From the NCBI RefSeq assembly GCF_002356355.1, contig NZ_AP018052.1, positions 2,790,001-2,854,000 of the forward strand: a DNA stretch of 64,000 nucleotides, written 5' to 3'. The notes under the pieces are model-generated. The model was given only the letters and a program-made list of their open reading frames with translations, was not told the DNA's origin and made no database searches. A program made the translations under genes and the position numbers. Each line of letters starts with the position of its first letter. Within the stretch, counting starts at the first letter, position 1. Source of the stretch: Thiohalobacter thiocyanaticus. GTDB taxonomy: Bacteria > Pseudomonadota > Gammaproteobacteria > Thiohalobacterales > Thiohalobacteraceae. Below are positions 8,530-20,537 of the stretch, in pieces.

Positions 8530-8536
8530 GTTGCAT

Positions 8537-8795
8537 AAAGAGCGCCACGGAAAACACGGAAAGGATAAAGGTCATGCCACCGGGCGCGCAGCGCCGGCGT
8601 TACACAGCGGATTGAAATATTTTCCACATCACCGAAAAGACCGTCATTCCCGCGCAGGCGGGAATCCATAGACCGCTGCGGCTGCTGGATCCCCGCCTGC
8701 GCGGGGATGACGATGTGGGACTGCAGTCCATGTATTCTGGCTCCTGAGCAATAATGAATTTGTCCGTGTTTTCCGTGTATTCCGTGGCGCTCCTT
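8537..8795. repeat. composite palindromic repeat between pilS and pilR: type A ends, type D core
   Basis: Inverted type A ends at 8537-8566 and 8759-8795 enclose a type D core at 8642-8712. The core arms are CGTCATTCCCGCGCAGGCGG and its complement. This accounts for most of the 306-bp gene-free stretch 8530-8835. The left end starts 7 bp after the pilS stop and the right end is about 40 bp before the pilR start. Confidence 0.85.
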
Positions 8796-8835
8796 GATAT
8801 GATTTTTCCGCGCATTGATCAAAACAGGAACCCGC

Positions 8836-10207: not shown

Positions 10208-10245
10208 TCCGTGTTTTCCGTCATCCCCGCGCAGGCGGGGATCCA
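10208..10245. repeat. fragment of type A end fused to half of a type D repeat
   Basis: Thirteen bases of a type A end (TCCGTGTTTTCCG) run straight into one arm of a type D palindrome (CGTCATCCCCGCGCAGGCGG). No partner arm is seen, so this is a decayed or truncated copy. Confidence 0.6.
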
Positions 10246-10313
10246 GAAACCGCCATCACTATAAGGCCACCGGTGCGCCATCCTTCCGAGCAACGACACA
10301 TCACGTCACCCGA

Positions 10314-10330: not shown

Positions 10331-10462
10331 ATGCAGCCTTGTGATTTGTGACCAGCCTCACAATCACGAGCCACCAAGAACTCTCTGACAGCAACACAAA
10401 TGAAAGTTATTTATTGATTTTTCTTGTTATTTTATGCCTTTCGGTCACACAGGAGGCAGCCT

Positions 10463-10476
10463 GGCACACCTCATGC
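10463..10476 (+). promoter_or_regulatory. sigma-54 (-24/-12) promoter of pilA
   Basis: TGGCACACCTCATGC carries GG at 10463-10464 and GC at 10475-10476 with exactly 10 bases between, the invariant RpoN spacing. Transcription would begin near 10488, about 60 bp before the pilA ATG. With the upstream palindrome this explains the 364-bp gene-free stretch 10186-10549. Confidence 0.85.
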
Positions 10477-10549: not shown

Positions 10550-10957
10550 ATGAAGAAGACACAACAGGGTTTTACCCTTATCGAACTCATGATCGTGGTC
10601 GCGATCATCGGCATCCTGGCCGCCATCGCGATCCCGGCCTATCAGGACTACACCAAGCGTGCCAAGGGTTCTGAGTTGCTCAGCATTGCCTCCGGTGCGA
10701 AGGCATCTGTGGGCGAGTACATTGTTACTAGAGGGTCAATGCCGACAGACCAGACAGAAGCCGGCTTCGAGGATCAGTCCACCACCATCGTTGACAGCAT
10801 GGTCTGGAATGGCAGCGCCATCGTCATCACTGGTAACGCAACCGAGGTTGATGGTCTGGTCCTTGAACTCACCCCGACAATCAACGCAGCGGGAGCAGTC
10901 GAGTGGGATTGCGCCGCAACTGCAGCTCAGAACCTTGCTCCTGCAAGCTGCCGTTAA
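10550..10957 (+). CDS. pilA: type IV major pilin PilA
   Basis: 135-residue prepilin. The leader MKKTQQG is cut by PilD before Phe8; the mature N-terminus [14 protein letters not shown] has the conserved Glu5 and a long hydrophobic alpha-1 helix. Cys121 and Cys134 near the C-terminus should form the D-loop disulfide, and Ser133 sits just before the last Cys. It assembles into retractile pili for twitching and adhesion. It lies downstream of pilR and behind a sigma-54 promoter. The ATG at 10550 is set by the leader peptide. The reading frame is AT-richer after the conserved N-terminal third. Confidence 0.95.
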
Positions 10958-10984: not shown

Positions 10985-11004
10985 GGGCCGCCGCATGGCG
11001 GCCC
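10985..11004 (+). terminator. strong hairpin after pilA (attenuator or terminator)
   Basis: GGGCCGCC-GCAT-GGCGGCCC is a perfect 8-bp stem with a 4-base loop, 27 bp after the pilA stop and 15 bp before the next ATG. There is no T-run, so it may stabilise abundant pilA mRNA and allow partial read-through into the glycosyltransferase gene rather than stop transcription fully. Confidence 0.65.
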
Positions 11005-11019
11005 ACTCAGTTAAAGACA

Positions 11020-13056
11020 ATGAAATTACGTAATCAGGCTGTCGTTTCATCGCTATTCATTGCAGGCCTGCTGCTATGCATCGCGATATACTGGATCGGA
11101 ATTGATGGCACTTTCATTCTCGATGACACTGCCAATATCAATCAGGCGGTAATCAAAGAATCCACCAGCGAGTCCTGGATACACGCCGCCTTCAGTAACG
11201 ACTCCGGCACCCTTGGCCGCCCAATCTCCGCAGCTAGCTTTGCCTTCACCAGCCTGTTTCATGGACTGGATCCGGCTGCATTCAAGTATCACAACCTGCT
11301 CCTGCATCTGATCACAGGAATTCTGCTGTGGCTGCTGGGCCACAGAATACTCATCAGTCTACCTAATCGAATTTCCGAAACCCGTGCCTGGTATATCGCT
11401 GGAGCCGCCGCCATTCTGTGGTTGATACACCCGCTTCTTGTCAGCACAACGCTGTATGCGGTTCAGCGCATGACACAGCTGTCCACACTGTTCATTATCA
11501 TTGCATTGCTCAGCTATGTCGCATTCCGTGCGAGACTACACCAGCGCCCGTTCATGTATGGCGCCGGCATGTTACTGACGGTTGGAATCTCCGGTCTCAT
11601 GGGGGTTTTCAGCAAAGAAAATGCCGCATTACTCCCCCTCTATCTCTTAGCCGTGGAATGCATCGTCTTCCAATGGAAACTTCCACGAACAGAGAAGCCA
11701 AGATCACACGCAGAGAGCACCAGCCGCAAGAATGGCACGAAAGCAGCACGGCACATTCTGATTGCATTTCATGCCATTTTTGTAGTGATACCGCTTAGCG
11801 CCGCTCTTATATACGTCATTATCAATTGGTCAGACCTCACGCATGGCTACACCAATCGTCAGTTCACCTTGCCAGAGCGCCTGCTAACCGAAGCTCATGT
11901 CGTGTGGTTTTACTTGAAAGCAATCATATTCCCCCGCGTAGCGGATATGACCCTGTTTCACGACGCCTATCCAATACAGTCACAGCTCGACATTGCCACC
12001 ACAGCCGCTTTCGCCGGCCATGCCATATCGTTGATAACAATGATATCAATGGCACGTAAAGCGCCTGTGCTTGCCTTAGGAATAAGCGTTTTTTACATTT
12101 CACACGCGCTTGAATCCACCTTTATTCCACTTGAACTGGTGTTCGAGCACAGGAATTATCTGGCAACCTGGGGAATAATGTTCACATTGACGTATTATAT
12201 CGTGGGAACACCCGGGCAAGCAGAAAAATTGAAATTTGCAAGATACACAACCGTCGTCAGCATCATTGCACTTTTCTCATTCATGGCACACACGCGCGCA
12301 CTGACATGGCAAAAAGAAGAACTGATCACCATAGCTGCGCTGGAGAAATACCCGAATTCTGTTCGGGCGCTCAGCCATCTTGCCAACATCAACCTGAAGC
12401 GCGGCTCAGTGGAATACGCTCGCCATTATATCGAATCCGCGGTCGAGGCAGCCCCGGATCAGGCCGGCCCGGCACTTCACCTGCTTTTCACATACTGCAA
12501 GGCCGACTCCTACCCGGAAGAGTTGCATGACAGGATCGTACACACCCTCCGCACAGGAATCGCCACGGTTTATGCCCAAAACGGCGCATACTCGCTAGCC
12601 ATGCTGAAAAACAAAGGCGAATGCATTGCAGTAAAAACCAATGAAGTTGCAAAGTTTCTACTCGCTTTCCTAGAAAATCATCGTATTAACAACGAGATAC
12701 GCTATTACCTTCTTCTCCAATTAGGCCGTGTCTATCTAGCTGACGGACAGGCTGAAGCAGCGCGATCAAGCTTTAACAAAGCGACAAAATACCAATCACA
12801 TGCACCGTACATACATCGTCTAATGGCTTTGGAAGGCTCCGTCCTCAGCAGCATTGAGTTGAAGGATATGAAATCCGCCACCAAATCCCTCTTGGAGATC
12901 AATGCGCTCGCCAGCGACCCCAGACTAAAATCCATATTCAATATCGAGGGAACCATTGAAAATCTCGAGGAAATAGACGATGAAGCGCTGAAACTAAAAG
13001 CTATAAAGATGGCGCCTATAAGCCACAACAAAACGACCCATCATCCAAACTCATAA
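11020..13056 (+). CDS. GT-C type membrane glycosyltransferase with C-terminal TPR repeats
   Basis: 678 residues. The N-terminal half is polytopic. It has the first-loop acidic motif FILDDTANI (Asp35, Asp36), then LGRPISAASFAF and KYHNLLLHLITG, and later FEHRNYLATWG, all features of TMTC-like or polyprenyl-phosphate-sugar-dependent GT-C enzymes. The C-terminal 250 residues hold TPR-like helices (AARSSFNKATKY). It follows pilA by 62 bp in the same direction with a hairpin between. This position suggests transfer of a sugar to pilin, in the way TfpO/TfpW do in Pseudomonas, but the sequence is not recognisably either. Codon use is AT-richer than in neighbours, suggesting transfer. Confidence 0.7.
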   Translation: MKLRNQAVVSSLFIAGLLLCIAIYWIGIDGTFILDDTANINQAVIKESTSESWIHAAFSNDSGTLGRPISAASFAFTSLFHGLDPAAFKYHNLLLHLITGILLWLLGHRILISLPNRISETRAWYIAGAAAILWLIHPLLVSTTLYAVQRMTQLSTLFIIIALLSYVAFRARLHQRPFMYGAGMLLTVGISGLMGVFSKENAALLPLYLLAVECIVFQWKLPRTEKPRSHAESTSRKNGTKAARHILIAFHAIFVVIPLSAALIYVIINWSDLTHGYTNRQFTLPERLLTEAHVVWFYLKAIIFPRVADMTLFHDAYPIQSQLDIATTAAFAGHAISLITMISMARKAPVLALGISVFYISHALESTFIPLELVFEHRNYLATWGIMFTLTYYIVGTPGQAEKLKFARYTTVVSIIALFSFMAHTRALTWQKEELITIAALEKYPNSVRALSHLANINLKRGSVEYARHYIESAVEAAPDQAGPALHLLFTYCKADSYPEELHDRIVHTLRTGIATVYAQNGAYSLAMLKNKGECIAVKTNEVAKFLLAFLENHRINNEIRYYLLLQLGRVYLADGQAEAARSSFNKATKYQSHAPYIHRLMALEGSVLSSIELKDMKSATKSLLEINALASDPRLKSIFNIEGTIENLEEIDDEALKLKAIKMAPISHNKTTHHPNS

Positions 13057-13220
13057 TGACGCTTCACCACTAACCCCATAACACTCATACAACAACGTCG
13101 CCAGACAATAAGCGCGCCACAAATCCTACGCACCTTGCACCCAAGCGCTCGGAAAATAAAACAGCACATCCTCGCGTTAACTTAATAATACAACTGTGAG
13201 GCACCCCGCACCCCGGAAGA
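13057..13220. other. AT-richer gap between convergent genes
   Basis: 164 bp between the convergent glycosyltransferase and LPG-synthase-type genes. No repeat, reading frame or clear terminator hairpin was seen. Confidence 0.4.
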
Positions 13221-14102
13221 TCAATCCTTACTATACAACCGCGACCGGATCAGAAGCCCCGTCAAGAAGACGATAACTTCGACACAGAACGACCAGGCTC
13301 TTGCCATGGAAGCATAGACGAGCGCAGCCCCCGCATCCGGTATCTGTGTCATCAGGTAGCCCGCCCCGGCGGCCTCGCGCACACCCAGACCTGCGGGCGC
13401 AAATGGGACGAGTATTCCGGCAACATTTGCGACCGCCTGACTGAGCATGACGACGGGATCGATATGAACAGAAATTGACCGGAACATCAGCCAGTAGGCC
13501 GCAACCATCAAAAACCAATGCATCGCACATGACAACAGCAGAGGAATACTGTTCGCACCCTCACGCGGCATTGACAAACCCGCACGCGACGAAAATCGCG
13601 CCAATATTCGATGGACACCGCGACTACGCTCACTTGCATAAACGACAAGAATAACCATTAAAAGTGGCACGGGGTAGAGCACCGGGGCCTGTCCCGCAAT
13701 CGCAAGCAGGCCTATTGACCCCACTCCCAAACCCGCAAGGATTATCGCTACCTGATACCAGCCGACACGCGCAACGGAATCGCGAAATCGAAAGTCTTGC
13801 GACTCAAGCAGGGAAGCCATCGACAGAATCGGCCATACCTTACCAGGAATATACTTCGTCAACACAGGAAGAAGTACGCTGGCCGCCGCCCGTCTGAATG
13901 GCATCGATATCCCCGATGAGCGCAGATAACCATGCCAGGTCCATGCTCGATACCAGAAAAATGCATAGAGCAGCACAGTTGAACCCGCCATCAAGCCCCA
14001 ATCGACGCTGACGGAGAGAAATCGCTCCGGCTCAAGCGCCATAAATGCGCCAGCAGCCGCAGCTATGGCAATAATCGGGAGATAGCGCAGGACCGCAATC
14101 AT
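13221..14102 (-). CDS. lysylphosphatidylglycerol synthase-type/AglD-like integral membrane protein
   Basis: 293 residues with about eight hydrophobic helices and the family signatures TKYIPGKVWPI and PAGLGVREAAGAGYL. This UPF0104/LPG_synthase_TM fold includes flippase-like parts of MprF and archaeal AglD proteins; it often sits in glycan-assembly loci. There is no soluble aminoacyl-transferase domain, so it is not MprF. It may move or use a lipid-linked sugar. It lies 50 bp downstream of the sulfotransferase gene on the same strand, likely one transcript with the GT2 gene upstream of both. Exact activity is unknown. Confidence 0.75.
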   Translation of the reverse strand: MIAVLRYLPIIAIAAAAGAFMALEPERFLSVSVDWGLMAGSTVLLYAFFWYRAWTWHGYLRSSGISMPFRRAAASVLLPVLTKYIPGKVWPILSMASLLESQDFRFRDSVARVGWYQVAIILAGLGVGSIGLLAIAGQAPVLYPVPLLMVILVVYASERSRGVHRILARFSSRAGLSMPREGANSIPLLLSCAMHWFLMVAAYWLMFRSISVHIDPVVMLSQAVANVAGILVPFAPAGLGVREAAGAGYLMTQIPDAGAALVYASMARAWSFCVEVIVFLTGLLIRSRLYSKD

Positions 14103-14152
14103 GGCCGCATCAGTAACTTGGCGGGAAGCAGTAGCACCTTGCGCATCAGCGT

Positions 14153-15073
14153 TTACAAGAGATAGCTTGGCCAGTACCGTATGTAGCGATATATAATACG
14201 CACATCGCTGATCCGATCCGCCAGATCCCTCCAGAAAAACCCAAACCCGCGCGATCGACTGGCCATCGGGTCATACCCCAGAGCCGACATCTCTCTGGCG
14301 CATAGCCCCTCAATGGCAGCAATCTCATCATCGCGCAGAATTTTCTGCCAGTCGTTGATTCGCTTAGGGTTTGGTCTAACACCATTTCTGACTGTATTAA
14401 TCTCAAAGCCTGAACGGGAGAAAAAGACCGGCTTTGCCTGACCAAGAAGATTTTCAACCGGGACAGCGGGCAACTGAAGAAACCGGAGTATCTCATTCAT
14501 AGTTTCCTCAAACCGGCAAATCAACTCTTCATATTTCACTAGCAAAACATTCTCCGGACACGACTCCGGGTACTCGATGAACGAGACGATCTCCTGGTTG
14601 TCACGCCTCCAACGTCTGCAGCCGCGGATAACGGAATTGGTGTGCTGCCCCGAACGCTTCATCGAGGCCACAACCGCACGCGGATCCCGGTATACAAGGA
14701 CCCACCTGGCATCCGGAAACGCATACTCAAACAGGGATCGATATCGCACGAACCGTGGCGTCTTCTGCCCCCATATCCGCGCGCCAACAGTTTTTGACAT
14801 ATTCTCATGCAGCCCGGCGACAGTTCGCACAACCGTATCCCCAATCACCTCGGGGCCTTTGTACCAACAAAGCAGTTGCGGCTCGTGATGGAGCAGCCAA
14901 CGGATAAACAATCCCGGCCTGCAGTCGCCCAGGCGCAGATAGTCGACCAGAAAGAGTGATTCCGATGGAATATAAACATCAGGATGCGCATCGACAATCG
15001 TGCGCAACAAAGAGGTACCGGAGCGACCGCAGCCGGCAATAAAAATAGGTCCGCATGCCTTGGAATTGGTCAT
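14153..15073 (-). CDS. PAPS-dependent sulfotransferase family protein
   Basis: 306 residues. The 5'-phosphosulfate loop GCGRSGTSLL lies at 14-23 near the N-terminus and the 3'-phosphate site YRDPRAVVASMKRSG in the middle, both hallmarks of the Sulfotransferase_3 type. No signal peptide or membrane helix is seen, so it should act in the cytosol. The acceptor is not predictable; neighbours suggest a sugar, lipid-linked sugar or surface polymer. ATG 15073 is preferred over a TTG nine codons upstream, whose ribosome site is too close. Codon use is AT-richer than in the flanking pil genes. Confidence 0.8.
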   Translation of the reverse strand: MTNSKACGPIFIAGCGRSGTSLLRTIVDAHPDVYIPSESLFLVDYLRLGDCRPGLFIRWLLHHEPQLLCWYKGPEVIGDTVVRTVAGLHENMSKTVGARIWGQKTPRFVRYRSLFEYAFPDARWVLVYRDPRAVVASMKRSGQHTNSVIRGCRRWRRDNQEIVSFIEYPESCPENVLLVKYEELICRFEETMNEILRFLQLPAVPVENLLGQAKPVFFSRSGFEINTVRNGVRPNPKRINDWQKILRDDEIAAIEGLCAREMSALGYDPMASRSRGFGFFWRDLADRISDVRIIYRYIRYWPSYLL

Positions 15074-15224
15074 AGACCCGGAACCAGGATACTCATTCAA
15101 GCCCCTGAAGCAGGCACAAAATCATGAAGCTCGGTTTCCATAATATGGAAATGGAGTCTGCTTGATTGTCGCACAATGAACAATCCCCGCTGCCATCGAC
15201 GGCCAAGGCATCATTCCTGAGGCA

Positions 15225-16133
15225 TCAATCGCTCCTGCGGCTTCTACGCCGATCCTCATCCGCCCCTTTATAATGCAGTGCCGAGACCTGTTCGGACACA
15301 ATGCCGATCAGAAACGTCAGCAAGGCAGAATTGAACAGCAGGGCGCTCATATTGGTGAACCTCTGCCACTGGATATAGGTATATCCATAGTATGCCAGCC
15401 CGGTCACGAACAGCAGGGCACTGATCGGCAGGAACAACCGCATCGGAGAAAACAGCGCACCAATCTTGATAATGATAATAAAGAAACGCAAACCATCCCG
15501 CAGCACCTTGATATTGCTTTTGCCTTCACGGCGTCCAGCACGGATAGGCACATACGCCACCGGCAGTCCGGAACGGAAGAAGGCCATAGTACTTGTCGTT
15601 GGATAAGAGAAACCGTTTGGCAGCAGATACAGAAACTTCCGGAAATGCCTGCCACGGACAGCACGAAACCCAGAAGTCAGATCCTCGATTCTGTACCCCG
15701 TCATAATGGAGGCCAGTCGGTTATAGAACAGGTTGGCAAGGCGGCGACCCTGCGAAGCATGGGTATCAAGTTGCCGCGCACCCACCACCATCTCGTAGCC
15801 CTCCCCCATTTTCGCCAGGAGCCTGTCGATATCTTCCGGGTCATGCTGCCCGTCGGCATCCATGAAAACGAGAATATCGCCCCTGGCTTCACGCGTCCCG
15901 GTTTTGACTGCGGCGCCATTACCCATCGAATAGGGATGCGAGATGACCCGCACCGAGTTCTCCCTTGCCAGGTCGGGCGTTCTATCGGTTGAACCATCAT
16001 CCACCACCATGATGTCCGCATCGGGATACCGGTCCCTCAACCTGGGCAGCAGAGACTGCAGGCCAGCCGCCTCGTTTTTTGCCGGAAGGATGATCGAAAG
16101 TTCGCAAACTTCTGTATTATTTAGTTCTTCCAT
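15225..16133 (-). CDS. GT2 glycosyltransferase, polyprenyl-phosphate mannose/glucose synthase type
   Basis: 302 residues. The GT-A domain begins LSIILPAKNEAAG, has VVDDGSTD at 43-50 and the metal-binding DAD at 92-94 (FMDADGQHDPED), as in dolichyl-phosphate mannose synthases. Two C-terminal hydrophobic helices (about 225-250 and 262-280) anchor it in the membrane. Such enzymes make the polyprenyl-phosphate sugar used by GT-C transferases, so it may feed the GT-C protein encoded next to pilA. It is first of three minus-strand genes inserted between pilA and pilB. Confidence 0.83.
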   Translation of the reverse strand: MEELNNTEVCELSIILPAKNEAAGLQSLLPRLRDRYPDADIMVVDDGSTDRTPDLARENSVRVISHPYSMGNGAAVKTGTREARGDILVFMDADGQHDPEDIDRLLAKMGEGYEMVVGARQLDTHASQGRRLANLFYNRLASIMTGYRIEDLTSGFRAVRGRHFRKFLYLLPNGFSYPTTSTMAFFRSGLPVAYVPIRAGRREGKSNIKVLRDGLRFFIIIIKIGALFSPMRLFLPISALLFVTGLAYYGYTYIQWQRFTNMSALLFNSALLTFLIGIVSEQVSALHYKGADEDRRRSRRSD

Positions 16134-16394
16134 GCTACCTACTCGAATCTATAGTTGATTTATTTCCCCAAGCACCGCCGCCATGGACAAAAACTTCAGG
16201 TAATATACCGAGGCATCTGCGCCCCGAGGATGCCAGCAACATAAAATTGATTTAACCAGGATAAGAATTATTTATCTTTAAGTAAACCCTACCAGCTGCC
16301 GACAAACTAATGGTATTTTGGCCAGTATCGGCTGAGCCGCTTTTCCAAAAAGTTTCATTGAGTTGCACAGTTTCAGGGAGTGTAGACGGAACTC

Positions 16395-18116
16395 ATGGTA
16401 TCACCGAACCCCAAAATCCAGCTCAGCGGCCTGGCGCGCCGTCTGGTACTGGACGAAATCATCTCCGAACCCGACATGCTCCAGGCCCTGGAGACGGCCA
16501 ACCGCGACAAGCAGCCACTGGTCAAGTATCTGGTCGGCAACAAGATCTGCACCAGCCGGCAGGTGGCCAATGCCGCCTGCACCGAGTTCGGCGTGCCGCT
16601 GTTCGACCTGTCGGTCATGGACATGGAGACGGCCCCGCTCAAGCTGGTGGACGAGAAACTGGTCCGTCAGCACAACGCCCTGCCCCTGTTCAAGCGCGGC
16701 AACCGGCTGTTCGTGGCTGTCTCCGACCCCACCAACCTGGCCGCCCTGGACGAGATCAAGTTCCATACCGGCATCACCACCGAACCCATCCTGGTCGAGG
16801 AGGACAAACTCACCAAGGTCCTGGACTCGGCCATGGATGCGATGGACAGCACTATGTCCGATCTCATGGACGACGATCTGGACAATCTGGATATCCAGTC
16901 AGGCGACGAAGATGACGCCGGCCAGGACGTCGATTCCTCCGAAATCGACGACACCCCGGTGGTGCGCTTCGTCAACAAGATCCTGCTCGACGCCATCAAC
17001 AAGGGGGCCTCGGACATCCACATCGAGCCCTACGAGAAGACCTTCCGGGTGCGCATCCGCCAGGACGGTGTGCTGCACGAAGTGGCCAATCCCCCGGTAA
17101 ACCTGGCCAACAAGATCGCCGCCCGCGTCAAGGTCATGAGCCGCATGGACATCGCCGAGCGCCGCGTCCCCCAGGACGGGCGCATCAAGATGCAGCTCTC
17201 CAAGAACCGCGCCATCGACTTTCGTGTGAATACCTGTCCGACCCTGTTCGGCGAGAAGATCGTACTGCGTATCCTCGACCCCAGCAGCGCCAAACTGGGC
17301 ATCGACGCCCTGGGCTACGAGGAACACCAGAAACAACTCTACATGAAGAACCTGAACAAGCCCTACGGTATGATCCTGGTCACCGGACCGACCGGTTCGG
17401 GTAAGACGGTCTCGCTCTACACCGGCCTGAATATCCTCAACACACCGGATCGCAACATCTCCACCTGCGAGGACCCGGTGGAAATCAATCTGCCGGGCAT
17501 CAACCAGTGCAACATGAACCCCAAGACCGGGTTCACCTTCGCCGAGGCCCTGCGCGCCTTCCTGCGCCAGGACCCGGACATCATCATGGTGGGTGAGATC
17601 CGTGACCTGGAAACCGCCGAGATCGCCATCAAGGCGGCCCAGACCGGTCACATGGTCATGTCCACCCTACACACCAACGATGCGCCCCAGACCCTGGCCC
17701 GCCTGATGAACATGGGGGTGCCGCCCTACAATATCGCCTCGGCCGTGAACCTGATCATCGCGCAGCGCCTGGCCCGGCGCCTGTGCAGCAACTGCAAGCA
17801 GATCGATGATGTACCCGAGGCCGCCCTGCTGGAAGAGGGCTTCAAGCAGGAGGACGTCTCGGGGCTGAAGCTCTACAAGGCCAATCCCGAAGGTTGTGAC
17901 CAGTGCACGGGCGGCTACAAGGGCCGGGTTGGTATATATCAGGTCATGGAGATCTCCGAGGAGATGTCCCGCATCATCATGGACGGCGGCAACGCCCTCC
18001 AGCTCGCCGATCAGGCGAAGAAAGAGGGCATCATGGACCTGCGCGAGTGCGGGCTGGAGAAGGTCAGGCAGGGCATCACCGGCCTGGAAGAGGTCAACCG
18101 CGTGACCAAGGACTAG
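16395..18116 (+). CDS. pilB: type IV pilus assembly ATPase PilB
   Basis: 573 residues. The N-terminal GspE/MshEN domain lies at about 10-150 and is followed by an acidic linker (153-186). The ATPase has the Asp box region, Walker A GPTGSGKT at 331-338, Walker B (IIMVGEIRDLETAE) and the tetracysteine zinc site CSNCKQ ... CDQCTGGYKGR. PilB is the cytoplasmic hexameric motor that powers pilus extension. It starts the pilB-pilC-pilD block. The 261-bp region upstream holds no recognisable sigma-54 promoter, so it is probably controlled separately from pilA. Confidence 0.96.
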   Translation: MVSPNPKIQLSGLARRLVLDEIISEPDMLQALETANRDKQPLVKYLVGNKICTSRQVANAACTEFGVPLFDLSVMDMETAPLKLVDEKLVRQHNALPLFKRGNRLFVAVSDPTNLAALDEIKFHTGITTEPILVEEDKLTKVLDSAMDAMDSTMSDLMDDDLDNLDIQSGDEDDAGQDVDSSEIDDTPVVRFVNKILLDAINKGASDIHIEPYEKTFRVRIRQDGVLHEVANPPVNLANKIAARVKVMSRMDIAERRVPQDGRIKMQLSKNRAIDFRVNTCPTLFGEKIVLRILDPSSAKLGIDALGYEEHQKQLYMKNLNKPYGMILVTGPTGSGKTVSLYTGLNILNTPDRNISTCEDPVEINLPGINQCNMNPKTGFTFAEALRAFLRQDPDIIMVGEIRDLETAEIAIKAAQTGHMVMSTLHTNDAPQTLARLMNMGVPPYNIASAVNLIIAQRLARRLCSNCKQIDDVPEAALLEEGFKQEDVSGLKLYKANPEGCDQCTGGYKGRVGIYQVMEISEEMSRIIMDGGNALQLADQAKKEGIMDLRECGLEKVRQGITGLEEVNRVTKD

Positions 18117-18122
18117 GGGGAA

Positions 18123-18156
18123 TGTCGGGTTACGCTGTTCGCTGACCCGACCTACA
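18123..18156. repeat. type B half repeat between pilB and pilC
   Basis: TGTCGGGTTACGCTG and its inverted arm GACCCGACCTACA form a single stem, one half of the longer type B elements. It starts 6 bp after the pilB stop. Confidence 0.7.
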
Positions 18157-20317: not shown

Positions 20318-20330
20318 TCGATCAATCGAT

Positions 20331-20517
20331 AGCCACGGAAGACACGGAAAGCACGGACATGAGATGTAGATGTAGGTCGGGTTAGCCCGAAGGGCGTAAC
20401 CCGACATGACCCGTGGATGCTTGTCGAGTTACGCTGCGCTAACCCGACCTACGCGCTTTACTCAGTCCAACCGACCAGATAATCGTCCGTGCTTTGCGTG
20501 TAGTCCGTGGCGCTTTT
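20331..20517. repeat. composite palindromic repeat: type A ends, type B core
   Basis: Inverted type A ends (20331-20359 and 20484-20517, both somewhat diverged) enclose a type B core at 20373-20452. It lies between pilD and coaE, 13 bp after one and 20 bp before the other. Confidence 0.85.
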
Positions 20518-20537
20518 GATTTTTTGGTGATATCTCC

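Follow-up and report, generated by a model that had tools for sequence, protein, structure and literature searches.

A candidate hypervariable pilin-modification cassette between pilA and pilB of Thiohalobacter thiocyanaticus, with a possible role in sulfation of the pilin glycan

Between the pilA and pilB genes of Thiohalobacter thiocyanaticus (Thiohalobacteraceae), four genes were found that appear to form a hypervariable pilin-modification cassette comparable to the pilin accessory cassettes of Pseudomonas aeruginosa, and that may provide the type IV pilin with a sulfated sugar. The genome of this organism is a single contig of 3,233,441 bases, and the window analysed here is the stretch of 64,000 bases from 2,790,001 to 2,854,000 (coordinates below are those of the window). 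On its plus strand, pilS, pilR and pilA are followed by a gene encoding a GT-C membrane glycosyltransferase with a TPR domain; the next three genes, on the minus strand, encode an LPG_synthase_TM protein, a sulfotransferase and a GT2 glycosyltransferase, after which pilB, pilC and pilD occur again on the plus strand. Gene identities, the fold and active-site motifs of the GT-C protein, its linkage to pilA and the replacement of the whole block between congeners are supported by computation. Pilin glycosylation by the GT-C/GT2 pair is considered very likely, and the entire scheme, in which the cassette is exchangeable and sulfate is placed on the pilin glycan, is given a probability of roughly 0.5.

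The product of the GT-C gene (11020 to 13056) was modelled with AlphaFold2 from 44 related sequences, with a pLDDT of 92.4. Residues 1-460 match the fold of yeast STT3 (Z 20.0 over 334 residues, 4.4 A), Pmt4 (Z 16.2) and Pmt1 (Z 14.3), and residues 430-660 match TPR domains by structure and TPR_19 by Pfam (5.8e-07). Foldseek by itself returned chiefly TPR matches, the repeat part probably ranking ahead of the rest. Among the 44 sequences, D35 D36 and K199 E200 are invariant, and R67 and the E376 R378 Y380 triad are invariant or nearly so. The acidic pair is located in the first external loop, the KE pair in loop 3, and loop 5 reads EHRNY, that is ExRxY where TMTC proteins have ERxxY. The conserved DD, RP, KE and ExRxY fall on the active-site motifs M1, M2, M4 and M7 described for TMTC (PMC7801869). 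No match to DUF1736 (PF08409) was obtained at E 0.1, and the protein is therefore called TMTC-like and not TMTC. By its model, the protein is confidently predicted to be one of the GT-C transferases that share the STT3/PMT fold, and its active-site motifs resemble those of TMTC. As in TMTC1-4 and the PMT protein O-mannosyltransferases, a C-terminal TPR domain accompanies the GT-C fold and a polyprenyl-phosphate-sugar donor is expected; unlike these, the protein is bacterial and is encoded beside a pilin gene. Its fold, the linkage to pilA and likely co-transcription with it suggest a role as pilin transferase, and the search terms used brought up no literature on a pilin GT-C/TPR transferase.

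Upstream of this gene, pilA (10550 to 10957, plus strand; Pfam Pilin 1.8e-15 and N_methyl) encodes the major type IV pilin, which is presumed to act as acceptor. The gap between the two genes contains a hairpin, GGGCCGCC-GCAU-GGCGGCCC (10985 to 11004, plus strand), with a GC stem of 8 bp and a fold z of -3.95, and stems of at least 8 bp occur 3' of pilA in 58 of 90 pilA/GT-C pairs. The hairpin in the window has no T run, and intrinsic terminators in the pilA-pilB interval are no commoner than in shuffled sequence; this element is a probable attenuator. A hairpin after pilA is known in pilin accessory cassettes of P. aeruginosa and others (PMC11841053).

The GT-C family is present in 102 of 369 sampled Gammaproteobacteria. 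In the 97 loci that were fetched, pilA lies directly 5' of the GT-C gene in 68 and a same-strand GT2 gene just 3' in 64, many of the remainder being interrupted by contig ends. Another 80 loci, taken from named records, mostly have the order pilA-GT-C-GT2 too, examples being Methylohalomonas lacus, Exilibacterium, Undibacterium and Acinetobacter bouvetii; the genes are rearranged in Lysobacter maris and Sinimarinibacterium. Of 58 loci, 76% have a GC content below that of their flanks (Wilcoxon P 3e-6), as expected of travelling surface-structure genes. The original prediction, made from the window alone, had described a pilin glycosylation cassette inserted at this site. Its first part agrees with the structure and motifs of the GT-C protein, the family of the GT2, the conserved pilA-GT-C-GT2 synteny and the conserved hairpin. 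pilA-GT-C-GT2 is a widespread module and no insertion peculiar to this genome, and what is unusual here is only the antisense block of GT2, sulfotransferase and flippase-like genes. The same four genes were not seen together at a second locus, such as a capsule locus without link to pilA, and in many families the two conserved genes stand at pilA. The GT-C gene often occurs in tandem copies (L125, L126, L132, L133, L146, L175, L180 and L186), and in one genome (G044, L068:9358-10959) it is interrupted by several stops.

Comparison with two congeners, whose flanks are about 90% identical to those of the window, indicates that the site has been exchanged. In one of them (G001) it is empty, pilA adjoining pilB with a gap of about 230 bases and no gene in between, and in the other (G002) it holds a different set composed of pilA, a GT-C gene (54% identity), a GT2 gene (57%), a GT4 gene, an LPG_synthase_TM gene and an antisense sulfotransferase-like gene. 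Nucleotide homology to G001 ends inside pilA at 10654 and restarts at 16394; that to G002 falls from about 90% to 66-68% past 10246 and is again 92% at 16269. PilB (16395 to 18116, plus strand), the right flank of the exchanged block, is 95-96% identical to both congeners, and PilA only 47% and 74%. Given these identities and borders, the exchanged unit comprises the variable part of pilA together with the cassette. That congeners with such similar flanks carry nothing or another set points to a hypervariable pilin-modification cassette.

All four genes between pilA and pilB were present as originally listed, and the cassette is indeed AT-richer than the flanking pil genes, with a GC content of 0.48-0.54 against 0.61-0.70 on both sides. 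At third codon positions the four genes have a GC content of 0.55-0.63 and pilA one of 0.65, against 0.88-0.90 for pilS, pilR, pilB, pilC and pilD. The lateral exchange first proposed from this bias is supported by composition, by the empty or differently filled sites of the congeners and by the GT2 tree (see below). The accompanying statement that pilA and pilB are usually adjacent or divergent was too strong: a filled interval is common in the class, and within the family of the window adjacency occurs in about half of the genomes (G001, G003, G006, G009 and G010, versus a filled interval in G000, G002, G005 and G007). In G005 (L085:1785-5613) the interval encodes a phosphoethanolamine transferase of EptA type (PF00884 8e-37, EptA_B_N) together with a spermidine-synthase-like membrane protein, perhaps for an alternative pilin modification by phosphoethanolamine. 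In a further genome (G032, L055:10996-14371), three methyltransferase-type genes and a GT4 gene lie between GT2 and the LPG_TM gene, which suggests a methylated, longer pilin glycan.

The GT2 gene (15225 to 16133, minus strand; PF00535 5.4e-30) encodes a predicted polyprenyl-phosphate sugar synthase in which hydrophobic C-terminal segments follow the GT2 domain. Its nearest solved proteins are ArnC (1.8e-16), dolichol-phosphate mannose synthase (DPMS; 1.3e-15) and GtrB (7e-11), and its best NCBIfam profile is AglJ, with a score below the cut-off. There is no other close GT2 in the genome, the next best being 33% identical over half its length. In a tree of 72 rows, for which the bootstrap had not fully settled, it belongs to a clade of 21 rows (98/98) composed of GT2s from pilA loci, mostly of other families, and the GT2 of the congener pairs with one of a different family (99/95). 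The GT-C protein of the window is, unlike the GT2, closest to that of the congener. As the affinities of the two proteins differ, the antisense block and the pilA-GT-C pair seem to have separate histories. G174 (L161) is arranged similarly, its LPG_TM and GT2 genes lying antisense ahead of pilB.

The LPG_synthase_TM protein (13221 to 14102, minus strand), proposed as flippase for the lipid-linked sugar, matches PF03706 with 49.7 bits (4.6e-13; cut-off 33.4) and TIGR00374 with 29.1 bits, below the cut-off of 43.2. It is the sole PF03706 protein of the genome. In at least 20 of 71 genomes, the pilA/GT-C locus has a PF03706 gene no more than about 10 kb away, versus 0.38 expected from genome-wide counts, an enrichment of about 50-fold; the LPG-type gene of Lysobacter maris (L257), on which Pfam is silent, was assigned by an own hidden Markov model. 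Kinship to TIGR00374 and linkage to GT2 would be consistent with movement of a lipid-linked sugar.

The third antisense gene (14153 to 15073, minus strand; ATG at 15073, open reading frame possibly from 15100) encodes a predicted sulfotransferase dependent on 3'-phosphoadenosine 5'-phosphosulfate (PAPS), with 88.8 bits to Sulfotransfer_3 (PF13469, 8.1e-25) versus a curated cut-off of 27. A PAPS loop, GCGRSGTS, and a glutamate align with tyrosylprotein sulfotransferase (TPST), fine reading of the active site being limited by an AlphaFold model of pLDDT 69. PAPS should be available since the genome carries a fusion of ATP sulfurylase and adenosine 5'-phosphosulfate (APS) kinase. Within 593-605 kb (L211:5365-17243), the fusion is accompanied by two further sulfotransferases and a flippase of the Wzx type, and this region is probably a sulfated polysaccharide locus. 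Sulfotransferases supported by Pfam were found near the pilA/GT-C locus in 5 of the 71 genomes (G094, G149, G211, G214 and G330), versus 0.93 expected (Poisson P 0.003). Weaker candidates occur in G190 and G002, the latter (Pfam E 0.012, no solved-structure match) being counted as sulfotransferase-like only, and the cultured relative Methylohalomonas lacus (L235) has a different sulfotransferase at the same site. A sulfotransferase gene followed by an LPG_TM-type gene was observed in G127 (L204:12122-13929), where the pair is just 5' of pilB, in G055 (L203:9119-10913) and in G173 (L202:3467-5343), with 39-57% identity between genomes.

In the scheme that we infer from these data, GT2 would take a sugar from its nucleotide-activated form and attach it to undecaprenyl phosphate at the cytoplasmic face, the sulfotransferase, as a cytoplasmic PAPS enzyme, would sulfate the lipid-linked sugar, and the flippase-like protein would turn it to the periplasmic face. 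The GT-C/TPR gene would be co-transcribed with pilA by read-through of the hairpin and its product would attach the sugar to hydroxyl-bearing side chains of PilA ahead of assembly. The inferred elements of the scheme are the nature of the sugar, the order of the steps, the action of the flippase-like protein, the role of pilin as acceptor and, most of all, the presence of sulfate on the pilin glycan. Sulfation is coherent with an intact PAPS-type enzyme, a PAPS supply and an adjacent flippase-like gene, and is plausible, the acceptor not being readable from sequence.

Several points weigh against this scheme. The GT2-sulfotransferase-flippase block is opposite in strand to pilA-GT-C and must be transcribed separately, and the flippase activity of PF03706 proteins in general is uncertain. 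The 369 sampled genomes contain no relative of the sulfotransferase closer than about a third identity, the best match having 26%, and a pattern search of the genome contigs gave no close relative either. Seven sulfotransferases aligned from pilA/GT-C loci are 19-27% identical to that of the window, so that recruitment would have been independent, and the enrichment at these loci is modest, ignores clustering of such genes and is only suggestive. This weak enrichment, and the fact that the majority of GT-C/GT2 loci have no sulfotransferase, would fit a pilin glycan made by the GT-C/GT2 pair without sulfate, the sulfotransferase being silent, inactive or directed to another target and simply encoded in a recombination hot spot, all the more as the genome has other sulfotransferases and a locus of the sulfated-polysaccharide type. 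We regard this as unlikely, if worth keeping in mind: the sulfotransferase gene is intact, it shares one antisense cluster with GT2 on one side and the flippase-like gene on the other, and sulfotransferases unrelated to it recur at the pilA/GT-C site.

The separate transcription also leaves room for an antisense block that makes a sulfated lipid or surface polysaccharide with no link to pilin, and both the LPG_synthase_TM and sulfotransferase families occur outside pil loci, sometimes as an adjacent pair. Such a product is rather improbable, however, in view of the position of the GT2 in a clade of GT2s adjoining pilA/GT-C in other families, of the lack of any other close GT2 (the GT-C would otherwise have no donor synthase at the locus) and of the enrichment of PF03706 at such loci, with the only such protein of the genome encoded here. 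Human and tick TPST are the solved proteins closest to the sulfotransferase in both sequence and fold (Z 20.7 with the model of modest confidence, about 25% identity), a further point against glycan sulfation, and with the retained PAPS loop and glutamate they might indicate that a tyrosine of PilA or of another pilus protein is sulfated directly and independently of the glycan, as by RaxST and TPST. Fold kinship does not set the acceptor, since the CurM (Z 17.9) and olefin-synthase (Z 19.1) domains, which act on polyketide hydroxyls, are nearly as close. Unlike TPST1/2, the enzyme is apparently cytoplasmic, with no visible signal sequence, and belongs to a bacterial glycosylation cluster; the globular domain of PilA is periplasmic and PilA has few tyrosines, which makes direct tyrosine sulfation very improbable.

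Among the other features of the locus, a putative sigma-54-like promoter, TGGCAC-N6-TGC, occurs at 10462 to 10476 on the plus strand, 74 bases 5' of pilA; it is the sole exact match in the window, with 1.35 expected by chance, and its assignment relies on position and on the neighbouring pilSR. Dispersed palindromic repeats, common to many sites of the congener loci, were located at 8535-8601, 8751-8799, 18115-18156 and 20320-20520, and a similar sequence is found at about 10219-10250, between pilR and pilA.

As in the P. aeruginosa cassettes (TfpO, TfpW), the pilin allele at this locus is variable and has its own modification gene behind it, a hairpin stands after pilA, and closely related strains differ in the cassette that they carry. 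TfpW is itself a pilin glycosyltransferase whose gene adjoins pilA, the likeness being one of role and gene position. Unlike those cassettes, this one is bounded by pilA and by a pilB of the same direction, its transferase carries a TPR domain, and the interval also encodes the donor synthase and the modifiers. The haloarchaeal Agl system also builds a glycan on polyprenyl phosphate with an AglJ-like GT2 and puts it on a pilin-like filament subunit, the transfer, unlike in the present scheme, being N-linked by AglB. A sulfated tetrasaccharide was reported on archaellin in that system by 35S labelling, and the sulfated archaellin glycan of Halobacterium is the nearest case to a sulfated pilin in the literature. 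The sulfate is disputed, later mass spectrometry not having seen it and no sulfotransferase being present in the cluster (PMC6591318). Literature on sulfated bacterial pilins, preprints being outside the scope and absence not being proven, gave only archaeal work and host-side sulfated glycans. That Gammaproteobacteria make a type IV pilin carrying a sulfated sugar by means of a TMTC-like GT-C, a polyprenyl-phosphate sugar synthase, a flippase-like protein and a sulfotransferase, and have recruited sulfotransferases into pilin cassettes several times independently, is put forward tentatively, at somewhat less than even odds.

Overall, more than a quarter of the sampled Gammaproteobacteria would have a pilin transferase of TMTC-like type and, linked to it, a donor synthase, at a site whose contents vary between close relatives and whose flanks do not. 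The transferase would represent a bacterial counterpart of the eukaryotic TMTC proteins with its likely natural substrate encoded next door, and the cassettes predict pili that are sulfated, methylated, further glycosylated or modified with phosphoethanolamine. In P. aeruginosa, pilin glycosylation shields pili from pilus-specific phages (PMC11841053). If the scheme is true, the negative charge of a sulfated pilus would also matter for the adhesion of a halophile and for its resistance to phages.

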